Positions 7,465 through 59,350 of a DNA stretch of 64,000 nt are shown piece by piece. The stretch is from Gluconobacter kanchanaburiensis NBRC 103587. Its GTDB lineage: Bacteria; Pseudomonadota; Alphaproteobacteria; Acetobacterales; Acetobacteraceae. The stretch is from the NCBI RefSeq assembly GCF_007988905.1, contig NZ_BJVA01000003.1, positions 62,001 through 126,000 on the forward strand. The letters run 5' to 3'. The position numbers and the translations under genes were made by a program. Below the pieces are notes generated by a model. It was given only the letters and a program-made list of their open reading frames with translations, was not told where the DNA came from and made no database searches. Numbering within the stretch: the stretch's first letter is position 1; each line of letters begins with the position of its first letter.

Positions 7465-7480
7465 TGTTTCACGTGAAACA
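7465..7480. promoter_or_regulatory. parS centromere-like site 1
   Basis: TGTTTCACGTGAAACA is a perfect match to the widely conserved 16-base bacterial parS palindrome bound by ParB. It lies between the start of the Gly-rich gene and the 3' end of the dciA-like gene, about 27 kb from parAB in this window. Confidence 0.88.
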
Positions 7481-30431: not shown

Positions 30432-31745
30432 ATGATGCGCTCATCCCTTCCGGACGTCCCTGACAATACGCCACAGGTCATTTTTGCCCTAGCCACAGGT
30501 CCCTCCCGCGCTGCCATCGCGATCATGCGCGCCAGCGGTCCAGGCTGTGATACGATCCTGAAGACGCTCTGTAACGGACGCCTGCCCGAACCACGGCGCA
30601 TCAGCCTGCGCACCCTGCGCCATAACGGAGAGGTGCTCGATCACGCCGTCGCCCTCTGGCTTCCCGGCCCCAATTCCTACACCGGGGAAGACGGCTTCGA
30701 GCTGCACCTCCATGCTGGCCCCGCCATCATCGCCCGCGTAGCCGACGCCCTCACCGATCTAGGAGCCCGCCCCGCCGAACCCGGCGAATTCACACGTCGC
30801 GCCGTGCAGAAAGGAAGACTGGATCTCCTTCAGGCCGAAGCCATTGCCGACCTCGTGGACGCTGAAACCGAAAGCCAGCGCAAACAGGCCCTGCGTCAGG
30901 CCGACGGTGCCCTGAGCCGCCTGTATGATGACTGGGCACAGCGCCTGCGTCTCGTCCTTGCCCATCAGGAAGCCCTGATTGACTTCCCGGACGAAGACCT
31001 TCCGCAGGACGTGGAAGACGGGCTGGTCGAGGAACTCTCGAAACTCCAGACCGAAATGTCCGCCCATCTTCAGGACAATCGCGGCGAACTCATGCGGCAG
31101 GGCCTGACCGTGGTGATCGCAGGCTCGCCCAATGTCGGAAAATCCAGCCTTCTCAATACGTTATCCGGAACAGACTCTGCTATCGTCACCCATCGCGCAG
31201 GCACCACACGGGACGCCATAGCAATAGACTGGACTCTGGACGGCGTCCGCCTGCGTCTGATCGACACGGCAGGCCTGCGCGAGACGGAAGACGAAATCGA
31301 GGCCGAAGGCATCCGCCGCGCGCTGTTTCACGTGAAACAGGCAGATGTCCTCCTCCATCTGATCGGCCCGGACGAGAGCCTCGACACCCTTTCCGGACAG
31401 GAAATTTCCATCCGGACGAAAATCGACATCGCACCAGCCCCGCCCGGCATGTTAGGGATCAGCACGCAGTCGGGCGAAGGACTGGATGCGCTGCGTCAGG
31501 TCCTATCCGAACGGGTATCCGAACTCATGGCCGGTTCTGCCGCACCCCCGCTGACCCGCGCCAGACACCGCGCCGGAATCCAGGAGGCCGCAACCCATCT
31601 GGACCGTGCCCAAACTGCGACATGGCCAGAACTGCGGGGCGAAGAACTCCGGCTGTCCATGCTGGCTCTCGGGCGTCTGACCGGACGTGTTGATGTTGAA
31701 TCCCTGCTCGATGCGATTTTCGGGCAGTTCTGTATCGGGAAGTAG
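30432..31745 (+). CDS. mnmE: tRNA modification GTPase MnmE
   Basis: With MnmG, adds the 5-carboxymethylaminomethyl (or aminomethyl) group to wobble uridine 34 of certain tRNAs. It has 437 residues. The N-terminal folate-binding domain ([47 protein letters not shown]) is followed by a helical domain. The inserted G domain has [22 protein letters not shown] and [13 protein letters not shown]. The C-terminal FCIGK with its catalytic Cys is intact. A perfect parS palindrome lies inside the gene near codon 298 without disturbing the frame. It is followed by mnmG with only three bases between. Confidence 0.97.
31324..31339. promoter_or_regulatory. parS centromere-like site 2 (inside mnmE)
   Basis: TGTTTCACGTGAAACA, a perfect 16-base parS palindrome embedded in the mnmE coding sequence (encoding FHVK). 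It lies about 3 kb upstream of parAB, the usual neighbourhood for ParB-loading sites. Confidence 0.9.
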
Positions 31746-31748
31746 GTT

Positions 31749-33605
31749 GTGAGCGATTTCGACGTCATCGTGATCGGCGGCGGTCATGCCGGATGTGAAG
31801 CTGCAGCGGCATCGGCCCGTTTCGGCGCGCGCACCCTGCTGCTCACCCATCGGCTTGAGACGATCGGCGCCATGTCCTGCAACCCTGCTATCGGCGGGAT
31901 CGGCAAAGGCCATCTCGTGCGCGAAATTGACGCGCTCGATGGCCTGATGGGCAAAGCCGCAGACCGCGCAGGCATCCACTTCAAACTGCTCAACCGCTCC
32001 AAGGGTCCGGCTGTTCACGGCCCCCGCGCGCAAGCCGACCGCTCCCTCTACCGCGCGGCCATCCAGGATCTGCTCGCCGCCACACCCAATCTGACGATCC
32101 TCGAAGGCGCCGCCGGAGACCTGATCGAAGAGAACGGCCACATCACAGGCGTCATCTGCGAAGACGGCCGCACCTTCCGCTGCGGCGCTGTCGTCCTGAC
32201 CGCCGGAACCTTCCTGCGCGGCGTCATTCATGTCGGCCACACCCAGACAGACGCCGGACGCATCGGCGAGGCTCCAGCCAAACGTCTGGGCGAACGGCTC
32301 TATGCGCTTGGCCTCCAAATGGGCCGCCTCAAGACCGGCACGCCCCCCCGTCTGGCCAAAGACAGCATCGACTGGGAAAACCTCCCGGCCGACCCCGGCG
32401 ATGCCGAGCCTGAAGCCTTCAGCCCCATGACAACGGCCATCACTAATCCGCAGGTCGTCTGCCGCATTACCCAGACCACCGCCGAGACCCACAGGATCAT
32501 CAACGAAAACCTGCACCGCTCGGCCATGTATGGCGGCGCCATCGCCGGTCGTGGCCCGCGCTACTGCCCGTCCATCGAAGACAAGGTCGTCCGTTTCGCC
32601 GACCGCAGTTCGCATCAGGTCTTTCTCGAACCCGAAGCCCTGCCCGGCAATCCGGGCGGCGATCTGGTCTATCCCAACGGTATCAGCACCAGCCTGCCTG
32701 CCGACGTGCAGGCCGCCATGATCACGACCATGCCCGGTCTGGAAAACGCCCGCATCGTCACCGCAGGCTATGCTGTCGAATATGATTACGTGGACCCTCG
32801 CGAGCTTCTGCCGTCCCTGCAACTGCGTCGCCTGCCGGGCCTATATCTGGCCGGACAGATCAACGGCACGACCGGCTATGAAGAAGCAGGCGCACAGGGC
32901 CTCCTCGCAGGACTGAACGCCGCCCGCGCCACGGCTGGCAACGAGGCCCTCACGCTGGATCGCAGCGACGCCTATCTCGGCGTCATGATCGACGACCTGA
33001 CACTGCACGGCATCAGCGAACCCTATCGCATGTTCACGTCCCGCGCCGAGTATCGTCTCACCCTGCGCGCCGATAACGCCGACCTGCGCCTGACGCCCAA
33101 AGGCATCGCCGCAGGCTGCGTCCTGTCCGAACGCGAAACTGCTTTCACCGCCCAGAAGGCCGAACTCGACGCCGCCATGGCCCGCGCCGCCGGAACAACC
33201 TTCCTGCCGCAGGCCCTCCGCGACGTGGGTTTCGAAGTCTCTCTGGACGGTCGTCGGCGCACGGTTCTGGACGTCCTCGCCAGCAACGGCGACCACACGA
33301 TCCTGAACGCTCTGGCGCCGTGGTTCGCCGAACTCCCCCTGCGTGTTCGCCGCCACGTCGAGACGGAAGCCCGCTATGGCGGATACCTTCACCGGCAGGA
33401 TCGTGAAATTCGACAGCTTGCATCGGAAAGTGCCATCGCCCTTCCGGCCGATCTGGATTACACTACCATCGGCGGCCTGAGCAGCGAAATGCGCGAGCGT
33501 TTTTCCCAGGCCCGCCCCACCAGTTTCGCCGCAGCACAGCGCGTGCGCGGGGTTACACCCGCCGCGCTGGTCGCCCTGCTGGCCCATGTAAGGACCCTGT
33601 CATGA
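31749..33605 (+). CDS. mnmG: tRNA uridine-34 modification enzyme MnmG
   Basis: FAD-dependent partner of MnmE in wobble-uridine modification. It has 618 residues. The FAD-binding motif [10 protein letters not shown] is at residues 9-18. The family blocks [47 protein letters not shown] and the C-terminal [20 protein letters not shown] are all present. Translation seems to start at GTG 31749, immediately after the mnmE stop. The stop overlaps the rsmG ATG by four bases. The mnmE-mnmG-rsmG-parA-parB order is a classical origin-proximal cluster. Confidence 0.97.
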
Positions 33606-34183
33606 CCACCGTTTCACGTGAAACACACGAAAGGCTGGAGCGCTTCGCCGACCTGCTCGTGCAGTGGAACGCAAAGATCAATCTCGTCAGCCCGCGGGAC
33701 ATCGCACAACTCTGGCCGCGCCATATCGAGGACAGCCTCCAGCTTGCCGAGCTGATCCCCGAAGGTGCCACCATCACCGATTTGGGGTCGGGCGGCGGTT
33801 TTCCAGGCATCATTCTGGCCATCGCCACAGGCAACCCCGTCACCCTGATCGAATCGGACCAGCGCAAATGCGCCTTCCTGCGGGAAGCCGGGCGCATCTG
33901 CGAGGCAAAGGTCACGGTCATCGCCAAACGTATCGAAGCCGCCAGCCCCCCTCCGGCCGACATCATCACGGCCCGAGCGCTGGCCCCCCTTAACAGGCTC
34001 CTGGACTGGGCACGGCCATTGCTGAAAGAAGACGGGTTCTGCCTGTTCCTGAAGGGTCAAAAAGCACAGGCCGAGTTGACCGAGGCAAGCAGCGACTGGC
34101 ACATGAGCCACAGCATTATTTCCAGCCGCACCGACCCCGGCGGAGCCATCATCAAGGTCAGTGATTTCAAGCGTGTCGTCTAA
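33602..34183 (+). CDS. rsmG: 16S rRNA m7G527 methyltransferase
   Basis: SAM-dependent methyltransferase for G527 of 16S rRNA. It has 193 residues. The SAM-binding motif is [16 protein letters not shown] (about residues 60-75). Upstream is the family block [15 protein letters not shown], and downstream [19 protein letters not shown]. The first codons overlap both the mnmG stop and a parS-type palindrome (codons 3-8 encode VSRET). The 3' end overlaps the start of parA. Confidence 0.95.
33610..33625. promoter_or_regulatory. parS centromere-like site 3 (inside rsmG)
   Basis: CGTTTCACGTGAAACA matches the parS consensus at 15 of 16 positions, the first T being C. It sits in the first codons of rsmG, 550 bases upstream of parA. 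Confidence 0.85.
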
Positions 34184-34976
34184 AACCGAATCCCCCACCA
34201 CCCGGATCATTGCCGTCACCAACCAGAAGGGAGGCGTCGGCAAGACCACCACCACCATCAATCTGGCAGCCGGTCTGGCCCGGCAGGGGCAGCGCGTCCT
34301 GCTCGTGGATCTGGACCCGCAAGGCAACGCCTCCACCGGACTTGGCATCGACTACGACCAGCGCAATACCGGCACCTATGCCGCGCTGATGGTCGAAGCC
34401 GAACCCCATGCCCTGCCCCAGCCGACCGCGTTCGACAATCTCGCGATCATCACGGCCAATAACGAACTGGCCGGCGCAGAGCTTGAAATGATCGGGGACG
34501 AGCGCCGCGAATACCGTCTGCGCGACGCCCTGCACGCGCTGCAAGGCGATTACGACACGATCCTGATCGACTGTCCGCCGAGCCTCGGCCTGCTAACGCT
34601 TAACGCACTGGTCGCGTCCGACAGCGTCATCGTGCCGCTGCAATGCGAGTTCTTTGCGCTCGAAGGCATCAGCCAGCTCGTCCGCACCATCGACCGCGTC
34701 CGCCGCGCCTTCAACGCAGACCTGCATCTCGAAGGCATTATCCTGACGATGTATGACCGGCGCAACAACCTGTCCGAACTCGTGGCGCAGGATGCGCGCG
34801 GCTTCTTCGGCGATCAGGTGTTCGAGACGATCATTCCGCGCAACATCCGCATTTCCGAAGCCCAGAGCCATGGCTCTCCGGTGCTGGATTACGACGCCCG
34901 CTCCACAGGCGCCATCGCCTATCTGGCGCTGGCGGACGAGCTGATCAAACGCAACAAGAACAAAACAAAGGCGTAA
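34161..34976 (+). CDS. parA: Chromosome partitioning ATPase ParA
   Basis: Walker-type ATPase that moves ParB-parS complexes during chromosome segregation. It has 271 residues from GTG 34161, or 267 from GTG 34173; neither has an ideally spaced ribosome binding site. The deviant Walker A is NQKGGVGKTTTTINLA, A' is LLVDLDPQGNASTG, and Walker B is DTILIDCPPSLGLLTLNAL. The start overlaps the end of rsmG by about 20 bases. parB follows after six bases. The lack of an N-terminal DNA-binding domain fits chromosomal type Ib ParA (Soj). Confidence 0.95.
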   Translation: MISSVSSKTESPTTRIIAVTNQKGGVGKTTTTINLAAGLARQGQRVLLVDLDPQGNASTGLGIDYDQRNTGTYAALMVEAEPHALPQPTAFDNLAIITANNELAGAELEMIGDERREYRLRDALHALQGDYDTILIDCPPSLGLLTLNALVASDSVIVPLQCEFFALEGISQLVRTIDRVRRAFNADLHLEGIILTMYDRRNNLSELVAQDARGFFGDQVFETIIPRNIRISEAQSHGSPVLDYDARSTGAIAYLALADELIKRNKNKTKA

Positions 34977-34982
34977 CCGGCG

Positions 34983-35858
34983 ATGGCCAAAAAGGACAGT
35001 TCCCCGCGTCTTGGTCGCGGCCTCGCAGCCCTTCTGGGCGATCAGGCGCCGCAACTGGCCCGCGCCACACGCACAAATGCCCAACCGCAGCAGCTTTCGT
35101 CCCTTTCGGTGGATGTTCTGGCCCCAAGCCTCTTCCAGCCGCGACAGGACATGAACCCCGAGCGCCTGTCCGAACTGGCCGACTCCATTCGCTCACGGGG
35201 CGTCCTGCAACCCCTGCTCGTCCGTCCCGATCCTGAAAAATCGGGCCATTACCAGATCATCGCCGGTGAACGTCGCTGGCGCGCCTCACAACTCGCAGGC
35301 CTGCACAGCGTCCCCGTTCATATCCGCGAACTGGATGACACGGACGCGATGGCCGCAGCCCTGGTCGAGAACCTCCAGCGCGCAGATCTCAACCCGATCG
35401 AAGAAGCCGAAGGCCTGCAACGCCTCGTCACGGACTACACTCTGACACAGGAAGAACTGGCCGGTGCCGTCGGCAAGTCCCGCCCGCACATCACCAACAC
35501 CATGCGCCTGCTGAACCTGCCGCCGGAAGTCCGCTCGCATGTCCGCAACGGCGACCTCACAGCCGGTCACGCCCGCGCCCTGCTCACACATCCCGATCCG
35601 ATCGCTGCCGCCAAACTCGTCATCGCCCGCGGCCTGAATGTCCGCCAGACGGAAGCCCTCACCAGCGGCAAAGAAACCACGACCCCGGCTAAAAAAGCGC
35701 GAGACGCTGAAATTCTCCAGATCGAAAACGACCTCTCTTCCCGCCTCGGCCTGAAAGTCCATATTTCCTATAACGGCAAAAAAGGCGGCTCCCTGAAGAT
35801 CGACTATACGTCACTGGAGCAGTTCGAGAGCGTCATGCGCCTCCTCAACCGTAAATAA
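34983..35858 (+). CDS. parB: Chromosome partitioning protein ParB
   Basis: CTP-dependent DNA-sliding clamp that loads at parS and spreads. It has 291 residues. The N-terminal CTPase domain has LFQPRQDMNPERLSELADSI and the GERRWRA motif, plus ALVENLQRADLNPIEEAEG. The central helix-turn-helix region is TQEELAGAVGKSRPHITNTMRLLNLPP. The C-terminal dimerisation segment ends KIDYTSLEQFESVMRLLNRK. Three parS-like palindromes lie in the window. It is the last gene of the mnmE-parB cluster. Confidence 0.96.
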   Translation: MAKKDSSPRLGRGLAALLGDQAPQLARATRTNAQPQQLSSLSVDVLAPSLFQPRQDMNPERLSELADSIRSRGVLQPLLVRPDPEKSGHYQIIAGERRWRASQLAGLHSVPVHIRELDDTDAMAAALVENLQRADLNPIEEAEGLQRLVTDYTLTQEELAGAVGKSRPHITNTMRLLNLPPEVRSHVRNGDLTAGHARALLTHPDPIAAAKLVIARGLNVRQTEALTSGKETTTPAKKARDAEILQIENDLSSRLGLKVHISYNGKKGGSLKIDYTSLEQFESVMRLLNRK

Positions 35859-44982: not shown

Positions 44983-45546
44983 ATGAAGGTCGAACGTCTT
45001 TCCATTCCAGAGGTCATTCTCGTCACGCCTCCCCGTTTTGGTGACAATCGCGGCTTCTTCTCCGAAACCTACAATGTGGACCGCATGGGCGAAGCCGGCA
45101 TCAACCTGCCTTTCGTTCAGGACAACCAGAGCCTGTCCCGCCAGAAAGGCGTCGTCCGTGGCCTGCACTGCCAGCTCGCCCCTTACGAGCAGGGTAAACT
45201 CGTCCGCGTCACACGCGGCGCCATCTGGGATGTAGCTGTCGATGCCCGCACCGGATCACCGACCTACGGCAAGTGGTGCGCAGCCGAACTTTCGGCTGAA
45301 AACTGGTCGCAGCTCTGGATCCCGCCCGGCTTCCTGCACGGCTTCGTCACGCTCGAAGAAAACACCGAAGTACAGTACAAATGTACCTCGCTCTACAGTA
45401 AGGTTTCCGAGCGCGCGGTCATCTGGAACTGCCCCGAACTGAAGATCGACTGGCCCGTTTCCGAAGCTGACGCCGTTCTGTCCGACAAGGATCTGATCGC
45501 ACCGCATTTCTCGGAAGCCAAAGGCTGGTTCCAGTACGAAAAGTGA
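44983..45546 (+). CDS. rmlC: dTDP-4-dehydrorhamnose 3,5-epimerase
   Basis: Cupin-fold epimerase for dTDP-4-keto-6-deoxyglucose. It has 187 residues. Signature segments are DNRGFFSETYN, FVQDNQSLSRQKGVVRGLHCQ (catalytic His in RGLH), GAIWDVAVDAR and IPPGFLHGFVTLEENTEVQYKCT. About 100 bases separate it from rmlA, containing a small imperfect hairpin (GGTTCC...GGAGCC region) and T-rich DNA. Its stop overlaps the GTG start of rmlD. Confidence 0.96.
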   Translation: MKVERLSIPEVILVTPPRFGDNRGFFSETYNVDRMGEAGINLPFVQDNQSLSRQKGVVRGLHCQLAPYEQGKLVRVTRGAIWDVAVDARTGSPTYGKWCAAELSAENWSQLWIPPGFLHGFVTLEENTEVQYKCTSLYSKVSERAVIWNCPELKIDWPVSEADAVLSDKDLIAPHFSEAKGWFQYEK

Positions 45547-56167: not shown

Positions 56168-56779
56168 TCACACAAAAATCGCCTTCAGCCTCCTCAGTTC
56201 CTCCAGTAGTGGAAGAAGCGGAAGCCCCAGAACGGCGTCCTGCGTCCCTTCGACAGCCGAAAAAAGTTGGATCCCGGGGCCTTCCAGCCGATACGCCCCT
56301 ACACAGGACAAGATCGCAGCCCCTTCCCGCTCCAGATAGGCCTGAAGGAACGCCTCCGAAAACGCCCGCATCGTCAGACGCGGCGACGCCAGATGCTCCC
56401 AGACCTTCTCGCCTCCTTTATAGAGAACAACCGCCGTGCGCAGAACATGCGTCCGCCCCCGCAACCGACGCAGATGCTCTGCTGCTTCAGCAACAGAACC
56501 CGGCTTGGCAAAGGCCACCCCATCCAGATCGAGAATCTGGTCCGCTGCCACCGTCAAATCATCGAAGCTCACATCCCGTGTCGCGAGATTAGCCTTTGCA
56601 TCTGCCAGAACGATCGCCGTTTTTGAAAGCGTATGCCCCTGCGCCTCGCAGGAGCGACGAAGCGCCTCCTCGTCAAGATCGACCGGTCTGGCCAGTACCG
56701 TAAGACCCGCATTTTCGAGCAGCATGCGCCGGGCTGATGAGCCGCTGGCAAGAATCAGGGAAGTACTGAAAGACATCAT
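56168..56779 (-). CDS. maf: Maf-type nucleoside triphosphate pyrophosphatase
   Basis: 203-residue Maf/HAM1-like protein that hydrolyses non-canonical or regular NTPs, linked to septum inhibition. Family marks are LILASGSSARRMLLENAGL, LADAKANLATRD, TVAADQILDLDG, RTHVLRTAVVLY and ILSCVGAYRLEGPGIQLF. It is divergent from hemE across a 353-base gap that I propose as the replication origin. A Maf-like gene next to hemE at the origin is typical of alphaproteobacteria. The GTAC array of that gap extends into the first codons of this gene. Confidence 0.92.
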   Translation of the reverse strand: MMSFSTSLILASGSSARRMLLENAGLTVLARPVDLDEEALRRSCEAQGHTLSKTAIVLADAKANLATRDVSFDDLTVAADQILDLDGVAFAKPGSVAEAAEHLRRLRGRTHVLRTAVVLYKGGEKVWEHLASPRLTMRAFSEAFLQAYLEREGAAILSCVGAYRLEGPGIQLFSAVEGTQDAVLGLPLLPLLEELRRLKAIFV

Positions 56780-57062
56780 GATGTACGACTCCGTACTATC
56801 GACTGCGAAAAGAAGGACGAGTACTGCAAGAAACCCTGTGAAGGCATTGCGTCAGTACTGGGGTACATGGGGATAGTACCAGCTCTTCCGAAAGGAGTAC
56901 CGAGTACCGTGGATTGTACGGTACACCAGCCGGAACTGGGGGTTGTACACAGCCTCTCTGTGGGCAATTCGGGATTGAATCCGCGACTCCCATGCAGACT
57001 GCGGCCTCCAGAGTTGTACACAGTGTGAACAAGATGGGGTACATTTTCAGAAAGCCGGGTAC
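56763..57062. repeat. Array of fifteen GTAC tetranucleotides
   Basis: GTAC occurs at 56763, 56783, 56793, 56821, 56855, 56863, 56876, 56897, 56904, 56916, 56921, 56945, 57016, 57039 and 57059. About one would be expected by chance in 300 bases of this composition. Contexts vary (GAGTACCG, TTGTACAC, GGGTACAT), so it is not a simple tandem repeat; it looks like many copies of a short binding motif. Confidence 0.85.
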
Positions 57063-57132
57063 CCCGGTATCCACAGGGATCATCTTAACCTCCAGCATTT
57101 CTTTCTTTTTTCTTTTATGATTAGTGGGCGGC
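56780..57132. other. Candidate chromosomal replication origin (oriC)
   Basis: Non-coding region between divergent maf and hemE, the gene pair that flanks the origin in Caulobacter- and Rickettsia-type alphaproteobacteria. DnaA-box-like sites are TTGTACACA at 56943-56951 and 57014-57022, inverted TTGTTCACA at 57024-57032, inverted TTGCCCACA at 56959-56967, and GTATCCACA at 57067-57075. A pyrimidine-rich, AT-rich tract (about 57090-57120) could be the unwinding element. Three GANTC sites (56787, 56977, 56985) could be CcrM targets. Fifteen GTAC tetranucleotides crowd 56763-57062. parAB/parS lie 21-50 kb away. Confidence 0.7.
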
Positions 57133-58194
57133 ATGATTTCGGAAAACGCACCTTCCTCACCCTCATCAAAACCGCTTTTGCGGGCCCTCCGTGGTGAGGC
57201 CGTCTGGCCGCCTCCGGTCTGGCTCATGCGTCAGGCAGGCCGTTATCTCCCCGAATTCCGCGCCATGCGTGACAGGGCCGACTTTCTGACCAGGTGCATG
57301 ACCCCGGACATGGCCACCGAGCTGACGATCCAGCCGATCCGCCGCTACGGCATGGACGGTGCGATCCTGTTTTCCGACATCCTGATCCTGCCCTGGGCCA
57401 TGGGTCAGTCCCTTGAATTCATTGAGGGTCGCGGTCCCGTGCTTAGCGCCATCCGCTCCGAAGCCGACCTCGCCCGGCTCGATCCAAAACGCGTACAGGA
57501 CGCCGTCGCACCAGTGCGCGAGACCTTGTCCCGCCTCGCCAAAGAGCTTCCCGACGTTACCACGCTTCTGGGCTTCGCAGGCAGCCCGTTCACGGTCGCC
57601 TGCTACATGGTCGAGGGCGGTGGATCGCGGGATTTCGCCGAAACCCGTCGCATGATGCAGACCAACCCAGGCCTGTTTGATCGCCTGATCGACACCCTGA
57701 CCTCGAGTACCGCCGAGATGCTCTGCGGCCAGATCGAAGCCGGGGCGGAAGCTGTGATGCTATTCGATTCCTGGGCAGGGATTCTGCCGCCTTCCGCTTT
57801 CCGCCGCTACGTGATCGAGCCGACACGCCAGATCGTCGCGTACATCCGCGCCCGTCATCCCAAGACTCCGATCATCGGTTTCCCACGCCTCGGTGGCATC
57901 ATGGTCCGTGAATACGCGCAGAAAACCGGCATCAACACGCTGGCGCTCGACACAGTCGCCGACCCGGCCCAGATTTCCGAACTCCTGTCCGAAGCCGTTC
58001 CGGGCCTCACCCTTCAGGGCAACATGGACCCGATGATCCTATTCTCCGGCGGTGAGACAATGATCCGCGAAGCTCAGGCCATCCGCGACGCAATGCGCGG
58101 AAAACCCCATGTTTTCAACCTCGGACACGGTGTCATGCAACATACGCCTCCTGAAAACGTGGCGGCCCTCGTCGAAGCGGTACGCGCGGTATGA
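57133..58194 (+). CDS. hemE: Uroporphyrinogen decarboxylase
   Basis: Cytosolic haem-pathway enzyme converting uroporphyrinogen III to coproporphyrinogen III. It has 353 residues. The family N-terminal block is PPVWLMRQAGRYLPEFR, followed by ILFSDILILPWAMG, FAGSPFTVACYMVEGGGS, MLFDSWAGILPP and FNLGHGVMQHTPPENV near the end. ATG 57133 is preferred; GTG 57124 would add three residues. The next gene starts inside its stop (ATGA). It borders the proposed origin and forms a possible operon with a HAD phosphatase and hemJ. Confidence 0.96.
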   Translation: MISENAPSSPSSKPLLRALRGEAVWPPPVWLMRQAGRYLPEFRAMRDRADFLTRCMTPDMATELTIQPIRRYGMDGAILFSDILILPWAMGQSLEFIEGRGPVLSAIRSEADLARLDPKRVQDAVAPVRETLSRLAKELPDVTTLLGFAGSPFTVACYMVEGGGSRDFAETRRMMQTNPGLFDRLIDTLTSSTAEMLCGQIEAGAEAVMLFDSWAGILPPSAFRRYVIEPTRQIVAYIRARHPKTPIIGFPRLGGIMVREYAQKTGINTLALDTVADPAQISELLSEAVPGLTLQGNMDPMILFSGGETMIREAQAIRDAMRGKPHVFNLGHGVMQHTPPENVAALVEAVRAV

Positions 58195-58907
58195 CAGGCC
58201 GTATGACAAAAGCCCTGGATCCGGCAGGCCAGTTGAAACTGGTTATTTTCGACTGTGATGGGGTTCTCGTGGATAGCGAAGGCCCCTCCTGCCGGGCCAC
58301 GGCGGAATTCGCCCGATCCAAAGGGCTGTCCATGACGGACGAAGAGGCACATAGGCGTTTCGCAGGCATGGCGCTCCCTCAGGTTGTCAGCGAACTTGAA
58401 GCCGAACTGGGTCATTCCCTACCTGACGAAACGGCATTCATTCTGCGTGAAAATCTCGTACAGATGATGAAAAAAAGCGCAGAACCCGTAAGCGGAGCGC
58501 CTGAAATGCTGTCAGGAATCCGGTCCTTGGGACTGCCGGTTCGTGTCGGGTCGAATTCTTCCCTCCGGGAGATGGACGCCAAGTTCGAGCGAACCGGAAT
58601 GACGCAGTTTTTTCCCGAAAACCGCATCCATTCCGCCAATGACATGGGCTGTCCCAAACCTGCTCCAGACGTGTATCTGTACGCAGCGAAGGCAGAGGGC
58701 GTTCTGCCAGAAAACTGTGTTGTGATCGAAGACAGCGATACTGGAGCAGAAGCCGCCTGGAAGGCTGGCATGGCCTGTGTGCTTCTTCGCTCTGAAGACA
58801 TGCCTGCCCCGCCCTTCTGGCCCGTCGAAGGTTCGGTCCGTATCGCCCATCTGGACGAGCTGGTACCGCTGCTCCGCCGGACGCTGGAAAGCCAGAAACC
58901 CGCATGA
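58191..58907 (+). CDS. HAD-family phosphatase (beta-phosphoglucomutase-like subgroup)
   Basis: 238-residue haloacid-dehalogenase hydrolase. Motif I is VIFDCDGVLVDSE, followed by a helical cap (RATAEFARSKGLSMTDEEAHRRFAG). Motif II is RVGSNSS, motif III lies near CPKPAPDVYLYAAKAEG, and motif IV is VIEDSDTGAEAAWKAGM. The closest families are beta-phosphoglucomutase-like and sugar-phosphate or 6-phosphogluconate phosphatases (YieH-like). Overlaps of four bases with hemE upstream and hemJ downstream show tight coupling, though a haem role is not implied by the family. Confidence 0.85.
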   Translation: MTGRMTKALDPAGQLKLVIFDCDGVLVDSEGPSCRATAEFARSKGLSMTDEEAHRRFAGMALPQVVSELEAELGHSLPDETAFILRENLVQMMKKSAEPVSGAPEMLSGIRSLGLPVRVGSNSSLREMDAKFERTGMTQFFPENRIHSANDMGCPKPAPDVYLYAAKAEGVLPENCVVIEDSDTGAEAAWKAGMACVLLRSEDMPAPPFWPVEGSVRIAHLDELVPLLRRTLESQKPA

Positions 58908-59350
58908 CTGACTTTCTCGCGACGTATCAGAGCTGGATCCTGTCCCTGCACATCATGGCGTTCATCGCCTGGATGGCCGGGACATTTTATCTCCCGCGTC
59001 TATATGTCTATCACTGTCAGGTGGTACCGGGTTCTGACGAGAGCGAGCGGTTCAAGGTCATGGAGCGCAAGCTTCTGCGCCAGATCATGACGCCCGCCAT
59101 GATCGTGACATTCCTCGCAGGCGGTGCCCTGGCCTCCATTCCTGGTCTGATCGACTGGAATGCGGGCTGGTGGTGGGCAAAGCTGATCTGCGTCTTCGGT
59201 CTCGCAGGATTTCACGGTGCCTGCGGAACATGGCGTCGTGGTTTCGCCGAAGACCGCAACCAGCACCCGGAAAAATTCTACCGGATTGCCAACGAAGTCC
59301 CCACAATCCTGATGATGATCATCGTCATCATGATCATCGTCCGCCCCTGA
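58904..59350 (+). CDS. hemJ: Protoporphyrinogen IX oxidase HemJ
   Basis: 148-residue membrane protein of the HemJ family, which oxidises protoporphyrinogen IX to protoporphyrin IX in bacteria lacking HemG/HemY. Four membrane helices are visible, starting SWILSLHIMAFIAWMAGTFYLPRLYVYH (with the conserved His of the first helix). Next come RQIMTPAMIVTFLAGGAL, AGWWWAKLICVFGLAGFHG and the C-terminal VPTILMMIIVIMIIVRP. RIANEVPT is typical. It is coupled by ATGA overlap to the HAD gene and shares the hemE transcript, making a haem mini-cluster beside the origin. Confidence 0.9.
   Translation: MTDFLATYQSWILSLHIMAFIAWMAGTFYLPRLYVYHCQVVPGSDESERFKVMERKLLRQIMTPAMIVTFLAGGALASIPGLIDWNAGWWWAKLICVFGLAGFHGACGTWRRGFAEDRNQHPEKFYRIANEVPTILMMIIVIMIIVRP

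Follow-up and report, generated by a model that had tools for sequence, protein, structure and literature searches.

The stretch between maf and hemE in Gluconobacter kanchanaburiensis NBRC 103587 is crowded with the palindrome GTAC, which raises two questions: whether the region is the origin of chromosome replication, oriC, and what the repeated word is for. We examined both in the window, a 64,000-nucleotide stretch of the organism's own assembly (G000:C3:62001-126000; 2.92 Mb in 46 contigs), and in samples of genomes from its family and class.

A GTAC array between maf and hemE

The earlier note on this DNA reported fifteen GTACs in 300 bases, and our exact count is likewise 15, with starts running from 56763 to 57059 (Table 1). 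The site at 56763 lies within the maf frame, and the remaining 14 occupy the maf-hemE gap. The note also put the density at fifteen times chance; the enrichment stands, but its size was set too low. Dinucleotide shuffling of the window (75.3 GTACs expected per 64 kb) predicts 0.353 per 300 bp, so the array represents a 42-fold excess (Poisson P ~9e-20, not corrected for the choice of 300-bp interval). GTAC occurs 67 times in the rest of the 64-kb window, which is the chance level.

The array is not repeated at unrelated loci, which the earlier note had named as an observation that would count against it. A plus-strand scan of the 2.92-Mb genome for GTAC-N(0-30)-GTAC-N(0-30)-GTAC returned 23 matches, 11 of them the array itself; the other 12 comprise ten isolated matches and two that form one overlapping pair, and this triple-pattern scan found no comparable GTAC cluster elsewhere. 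Clustering by chance or composition, for which we found nothing in favour, is refuted by the P value, by this uniqueness in the genome and by the conservation described below, and its likelihood is negligible.

Two smaller groups of GTACs were seen. Three lie within 17 bp at window positions 45370-45386, without any sign of function. Three more stand in a direct repeat (GTACCTTCACCCACG / GTACCTTTACCCACG) that flanks a DnaA-box-like CTGTGGATTAG at G000:C6:5996-6057, which is possibly the origin of a plasmid or second replicon.

Table 1 Features of the GTAC region and its surroundings, in window positions
Feature	Position	Strand	Remark
parS, further copies	7465-7480; 33610-33625		perfect; 1 mismatch
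mnmE-gidA-gidB-parA-parB	30432..35858	+	21 kb from array
parS	31324..31339	.	perfect TGTTTCACGTGAAACA
maf, left flank of origin	56168..56779	-	PF02545
Four GANTC (CcrM-type) sites	56752..56989	.	at 56752, 56787, 56977, 56985
GTAC array	56763..57062	.	15 GTAC sites
GTAC starts, first eight	56763, 56783, 56793, 56821, 56855, 56863, 56876, 56897
GTAC starts, last seven	56904, 56916, 56921, 56945, 57016, 57039, 57059
DnaA-like box TTGTACACA	56943..56951	+	1 mismatch to TTATNCACA; GTAC inside
69-bp core	57011..57079	+	TTGTACACA ... GGGGTACATTT ... GGGTACCCC ... TCCACAGG
DnaA-like box TTGTACACA	57014..57022	+	GTAC inside
DnaA-like box TTGTTCACA	57024..57032	-
DnaA-like box GTATCCACA	57067..57075	+	beside last GTAC (GGGTACCCC)
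A+T-rich polypyrimidine tract	57097..57124	+	similar tracts in the same place in aligned relatives
hemE, right flank of origin	57124..58194	+	PF01208

Conservation of the array and apparent selection on its word

The case made in the earlier note would have failed had related species lacked the array, and they do not lack it. Among 80 hemE loci of acetic-acid bacteria fetched from named genomes, 66 carry 9-15 GTACs per 300 bp upstream of hemE, two (L076 and L065) have intermediate counts of 6 or 7, and 12 have only 0-2. The loci nearest to our own, 97-98% identical, belong to Gluconobacter albidus and G. cadivus. An alignment of 18 sequences displays the recurring elements TGGGGTACATGGGGATaGTAC, GTACCGAGTACCG, TTGTACACAG (twice), GGGTACATTTT, GGGTACCCC and TCCACAGG, together with a polypyrimidine tract ahead of hemE, and contains a core of 69 columns that is free of gaps in all 18. 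A strict pattern for this core overlooked some loci. A sequence-only model built on the 69 bp (R1), run under strict filters with only the 20 best candidates per genome scored, found a single match per genome in 65 of 249 family genomes. Of 289 genomes in the class sample, 5 gave a match, four of the same family and one, weakly, elsewhere (G455, E 3.5e-4).

Eight GTAC columns are common to 17-18 of the 18 aligned sequences, and the GTAC in the column of the DnaA-like box at 56943..56951 is present in all 18. A further 51 GTACs are spread over 23 columns, each common to at most a third of the sequences. In columns with identity below 0.7 (3445 bases) we counted 61 GTACs against 9.3 expected from dinucleotide composition, the largest excess of any tetramer; the P value of this excess is optimistic because related sequences share some of the sites. 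By raw count in the columns common to at most a third of the sequences, GTAC leads all palindromes and comes third among tetramers, behind GAGT and AAAA. Its flanks vary, with AGTACT, GGTACA, TGTACA, AGTACC and GGTACC all common. GTAC itself therefore looks to be under selection.

Part of this pattern would suit another explanation, in which an unknown origin protein, an initiator accessory or an architectural factor, binds at sites centred on GTAC, with methylation irrelevant or secondary. The eight fixed columns fit it, as do the recurring spacings of 7, 13, 20 and 23 bp between neighbouring sites and the fact that the hexamers AGTACT, GGTACA and TGTACA are the most frequent (CGTACG occurs once); the 51 GTACs in poorly shared columns, with their varied flanks, do not. 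Weighed together with the enzyme distribution reported below, we regard this explanation as unlikely.

Around the array, Gluconobacter genomes hold 2-7 GTACs per kb over the 2 kb toward hemE (window 57493-59027, covering hemE and the next genes). Other genera have 2.0 per kb beside the core on the hemE side and 0.3-1.3 thereafter, mostly without a density like that of Gluconobacter. A gradient of GTAC around the origin was considered and rejected, the profile being read as gene history instead. Single-strand folding of the array gave z -2.6, which is uninformative because palindromes fold by nature.

The array marks the likely origin of replication

Whether the array belongs to hemE or to an origin can be judged from genomes in which array and hemE have parted. 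The 12 hemE gaps without an array come from Bombella, Parasaccharibacter, Saccharibacter and the Acetobacteraceae loci L022 and L033, and in all seven genomes searched among these 12 the module was found at another place; its neighbours in Bombella L093 are a Gluconate_2-dh3 ORF on one side and a GMC oxidoreductase ORF on the other. In each of the three genomes examined for skew, less than 0.4 kb separates the relocated array from the local minimum of cumulative GC skew. Measured from the core, the distance is 366 bp for G001 (over 60 kb read; hemE 21 kb off), 200 bp for G004 (over 38 kb; hemE 20 kb off) and 173 bp for G005 (over 20 kb; hemE 24 kb off). In G004 the skew drops again beyond 60 kb, near hemE. 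The array leaves hemE and stays at the skew minimum, and therefore behaves as oriC and not as a hemE promoter.

Where the family sample has a relocated array, it stands 20-26 kb from hemE, and the separation probably arose by a rearrangement that had the origin as one of its endpoints. The same spacing of roughly 20-26 kb is seen on G005:C6, G001:C1 and G004:C12, which represent Bombella, Saccharibacter and a related metagenome-assembled genome.

Promoters of alphaproteobacterial hemE genes overlap oriC. This background, and the position of the array between two divergent genes, would favour a cluster of transcription factor sites that regulates hemE or maf, and no origin at all. Such a region is hard to reconcile with modules that stand away from both genes in Bombella and Saccharibacter, including the L093 copy between two unrelated ORFs at a local skew minimum, and we consider it very improbable; a hemE promoter array in particular is ruled out by the relocated copies. 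Scans of the array region for sigma-70-like promoters and for terminators found neither, and an Rfam scan of 56500-57300 returned no family at E<=1.

Other features of the locus point the same way. The 430 bp around the array hold four DnaA-like boxes that differ from TTATNCACA at no more than 1 position, where mononucleotide shuffles give 0.32. The polypyrimidine tract at its hemE end is a candidate unwinding element, a role inferred from its composition and place. The gene cluster mnmE-gidA-gidB-parA-parB is usually origin-proximal, and here this cluster and three parS sites, identified by what we take to be the parS motif, lie 21-49 kb from the array (three sites found in the window, 0.14 expected). 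In G033 and G001 a ParA motif was likewise seen, at 36 kb and 11 kb from the array respectively.

The GC skew of genomes that retain the hemE linkage is less clear. Of the 63 usable hemE loci (those of the 80 with the strict core and enough flank), 60 show skew climbing across the array. The minimum in our own genome is 13.6 kb from the array (104 kb joined). Of five further hemE-linked genomes, four have their local minimum at 2.9, 7.8, 14.3 and 16.2 kb from the array, the skew being weak in two (G054 and G134), and the fifth (G030) has none within 40 kb. In G033 the skew flips 24-35 kb from the array, and in G223 it is too noisy for use. The skew check proposed in the earlier note thus comes out in favour of the array in the three relocated relatives, at 0.4 kb or less, and not in the organism itself.

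Taken together, the conserved module, the DnaA-like boxes, the parAB-parS neighbourhood and the relocation with the skew minimum bear out the hemE-adjacent origin that the note had suspected. The identification of 56763 to ~57124 as oriC is well supported, in the absence of a replication assay. A point on the other side is that, for Acetobacter pasteurianus, Ori-Finder placed oriC near dnaA, according to the part of the genome report available to us (PMC3751514). A likely oriC for the industrial genera Gluconobacter, Acetobacter and Komagataeibacter would be of use for replicating vectors and chromosome engineering.

A second methyltransferase co-occurs with the array

Methyltransferases of the PF01555 type are present in 110 of 110 family genomes, among the matches listed. 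Many family genomes encode a second such protein, of ~280 aa and with the motif TSPPYN, which we call MtB; in our own genome it lies at G000:C1:321520-322326. A full-length orthologue occurs in 54 of the 110 genomes at 51-100% identity to the MtB of G069, and these calls are separated by a clear gap from paralogues, which score at most 71 bits. In the larger sample MtB is found in 111 of 249 family genomes (G191 as a partial match), and in the class sample in 4 of 289, all of the same family.

MtB tracks the core closely. It is present in 63 of the 65 core-positive genomes, and the two exceptions, G090 (E 7.0e-4) and G158 (E 5.6e-4), are among the weakest core matches. A strong core (E<=1.5e-8) occurs in 60 of 111 MtB-positive genomes versus 0 of 138 MtB-negative genomes, without correction for phylogeny. 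The converse does not hold, as 51 of the 111 MtB-positive genomes have no strong core, and six of the first 20 second-type methyltransferases came from core-less genomes.

A census of the 520 bp before hemE in 77 core-negative genomes of the 110-genome sample bears on these carriers. It left out G049 and G039, one MtB-positive and one MtB-negative, which gave no hemE match. Core-negative genomes with MtB carry a mean of 2.14 GTACs upstream of hemE (22 genomes, every one with 1-6), and those without MtB a mean of 0.69 (55 genomes, 24 with at least one); the difference has p=6.5e-6, again uncorrected for phylogeny. For 15 other palindromes only GGCC fell below 0.1 (0.014), and in the opposite direction. 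Because of this census, the six core-less MtB genomes no longer count as evidence against a link. An unknown origin protein would not predict GTAC counts that track MtB, even in genera without the core.

The co-occurrence could also reflect nothing more than shared ancestry, the array and MtB both being old traits of the Acetobacteraceae and the enzyme serving an unrelated role such as mismatch repair or gene regulation. Many array carriers are indeed closely related, and our presence and absence counts were made without a tree. Shared ancestry does not readily account for a link that persists where genera lack the core and that singles out GTAC from 16 palindromes. Nor does it account for the counts in genera that are mixed for MtB, of which the 110-genome sample has three; in each, the carrier has at least as many GTACs as the non-carrier (2 v 2, 5 v 3 and 4 v 3). 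In G074, whose HemE is 65% identical, as in acetic-acid bacteria, array and MtB are absent together, a further point against mere inheritance. On balance we hold shared ancestry to be improbable.

The 1 kb around the hemE start of G074 contains no GTAC and 14 DnaA-like boxes instead, so that the array seems to have been replaced by DnaA boxes. Upstream of hemE in the same genome (L202), many of the DnaA-like boxes take the form of TGTGGATAAC repeats.

Two genomes keep the array and have an MtB match with one internal TAG (G223:C1:315903-316697 and G255:C3:2110374-2111168). The stop may be a recent loss or a sequencing matter. An array that outlasts its enzyme would fit the unknown origin protein considered above.

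MtB as a predicted GTAC methyltransferase

The MtB gene of our genome follows Tim44 and mltA, and no endonuclease was found among the six neighbouring ORFs tested. The order mltA-MtB is the same in G117, from a basal genus, and MtB lies ~4-8 kb from hemE in G018, G117, G072, G113 and G075, although these were chance finds and not a systematic survey. Of 110 family genomes, 4 have an RsaI-like endonuclease match (E from 7.4e-7 to 9.6e-4), our own not among them; some such enzymes could have been missed because the phage query is divergent. The weakest match, in G049 (E 9.6e-4), lies ~70 bp from an MtB homologue, and for those in G013, G041 and G116 a methyltransferase neighbour was not established.

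Among plasmids and phages, the best relatives of MtB in the collections searched are a methyltransferase of a Paracoccus plasmid (49.6% identity), an unannotated phage protein (47%) and cyanophage methyltransferases (43-46%). In two of the cyanophages, Syn19 and ACG-2014j, the methyltransferase gene, whose product is 43-44% identical to MtB, overlaps a gene annotated as the R.RsaI endonuclease. The other three of five neighbourhoods, ACG-2014f and two Paracoccus plasmids, have no annotated RsaI endonuclease beside the MtB relative. The two phage R.RsaI ORFs are 36% identical to one another. Pfam, NCBIfam and PHROGs give them no name, but both match a type II endonuclease model of PADLOC, with E 1.6e-11 and 0.0014. 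Overlapping genes for an RsaI-like endonuclease and a methyltransferase were seen at L331 2508-3786 and L333 2474-3774, both from Synechococcus phages. The company that relatives keep with RsaI-like endonucleases, in two phages and less convincingly in G049, is a last point against shared ancestry with an unrelated role for MtB.

MtB is ~25% identical to the CcrM-like protein of its own genome, and its motif IV, TSPPY, is presumably of the type that makes N4-methylcytosine (m4C). It resembles the methyltransferases of RsaI systems over its full length, with TSPPY in both, M.RsaI itself being outside the comparison. In the strain that is the source of RsaI, M.RsaI makes m4C at GTAC, with 87.65% of motifs detected (PMC6256690). 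Given the RsaI-paired relatives, the chemistry of M.RsaI and the lack of an endonuclease neighbour, MtB is most likely a solitary GTA(m4C) methyltransferase, its specificity and chemistry being inferred from those relatives.

A model for methylation at the origin

We propose, with a probability of about two in three, that the locus is an oriC whose GTACs are targets of MtB and in which hemimethylation times re-initiation. What was demonstrated is the array, its conservation, the tetramer excess, the joint relocation of array and skew minimum, and co-occurrence with MtB; methylation in vivo is predicted from the relatives of MtB, and an effect on initiation and a reader are supposed by analogy with Dam and SeqA. 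The earlier note had left open whether an initiator, a remodelling protein or a methylase acts at GTAC. The last option is favoured because an apparently orphan methyltransferase related to those of RsaI systems tracks the array genome by genome, and methylation itself remains an inference.

MtB, as a predicted maker of N4-methylcytosine, would mark the GTACs of the array on both strands (GTA-m4C). Replication would then leave the 15 full sites hemimethylated on both daughters, and re-methylation would not be immediate. The hemimethylated state is inferred to alter binding by DnaA, or by a reader yet to be named, at the interleaved DnaA boxes; two of the four boxes are TTGTACACA with an internal GTAC, so that DnaA might read the mark directly. 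The next initiation could thereby be gated, with re-initiation timed or limited, by analogy with Dam and SeqA at E. coli oriC.

A more specific version of the model is about an even bet at best. It supposes that acetic-acid bacteria have independently evolved an m4C-based origin licensing, written by MtB at ~9-15 sites, in which DnaA or another reader sensitive to hemimethylation blocks re-initiation. To the general model it adds the CcrM-like enzyme that stands alongside MtB, the lack of any SeqA relative found and the joint loss of array and MtB in G074. If true, the acetic-acid bacteria would supply a further case of a methylated origin, with another motif, another type of enzyme and a predicted cytosine mark, which would imply that origins recruit orphan methyltransferases repeatedly. 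A comparative set is already at hand: some lineages have both array and enzyme, some have the enzyme but only one to six sites, and others lack both.

Comparison with known systems

Among methylation clocks at bacterial origins, that of Dam and SeqA has been worked out best. The acetic-acid array resembles that system in the clustering of one short palindrome at the origin, in both cases the target of a solitary methyltransferase, here a predicted one. DnaA boxes lie among the GATC sites of E. coli oriC, as they do among the GTACs of our array. The differences are that the word is GTAC and not GATC, and that MtB is a PF01555 enzyme with what we take to be an m4C-type motif. In both systems the presence of the cluster tracks that of the enzyme, as far as the part of the source available to us describes the Dam case (PMC4752239). 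A SeqA-like reader was sought and rejected as a candidate, no homologue being found in any of 60 family genomes by a search that did find the E. coli control.

CcrM is an orphan methyltransferase of the cell cycle, and a CcrM-like class of PF01555 proteins (E<=2.1e-59) is present in 107 of 110 family genomes, among the matches listed. CcrM is nonetheless ruled out as the owner of the array, whose motif is GTAC and not GANTC (four GANTCs lie nearby), and MtB has only the distant relation to the organism's own CcrM-like protein given above. RsaI restriction-modification offers a resemblance in protein, through the 43-44% identity and shared TSPPY of the methyltransferases adjoining annotated R.RsaI in two cyanophages; it differs in that MtB is apparently solitary, with an RsaI-like match in 4 of 110 genomes and only one, in G049, beside MtB.

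Methylation of CACAG and GTWWAC in and around origins, near DnaA boxes, is described for Burkholderia cenocepacia in the portion of the report available to us (PMC7364216); those motifs differ from ours and carry adenine methylation. GTAC has been termed a widely distributed methylation motif (PMC5390034), and related work, like these sources accessible only in part, is found in PMC6471742, PMC13209655 and PMC4686929. A literature search on GTAC with Acetobacteraceae, methylome, oriC and m4C returned no report, most subscription journals and REBASE being outside its scope.

A precedent in kind is the survey of Blow et al. (2016), the accessible part of which describes motif clusters of orphan methyltransferases at origins for Dam, for TTAA in Arthrobacter and for CTCGAG in Nocardia, as well as an m4C motif cluster at origins of Haloarchaea (PMC4752239). 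The terms 'GTAC' and 'Acetobacter' do not occur in its main text, so far as that was accessible. The earlier note knew of no described origin with such an array; for GTAC this holds in the literature searched, but clusters of orphan-methyltransferase motifs had, on the evidence of the accessible part of that survey, already been described (PMC4752239). The acetic-acid array meets criteria of the same kind, namely an orthologous non-coding motif cluster in many species, a methyltransferase without a partner endonuclease, and co-occurrence of the two. As far as the available text allows comparison, it shares with the surveyed clusters the conserved orphan enzyme, the non-coding origin setting and the co-occurrence, and differs in motif, clade and enzyme (PMC4752239), while its relocation with the skew minimum is additional evidence in the present case. 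Within the limits of that partial source, the kind of arrangement was already known from Blow et al., and its motif, enzyme and clade are new as far as the literature searched extends.
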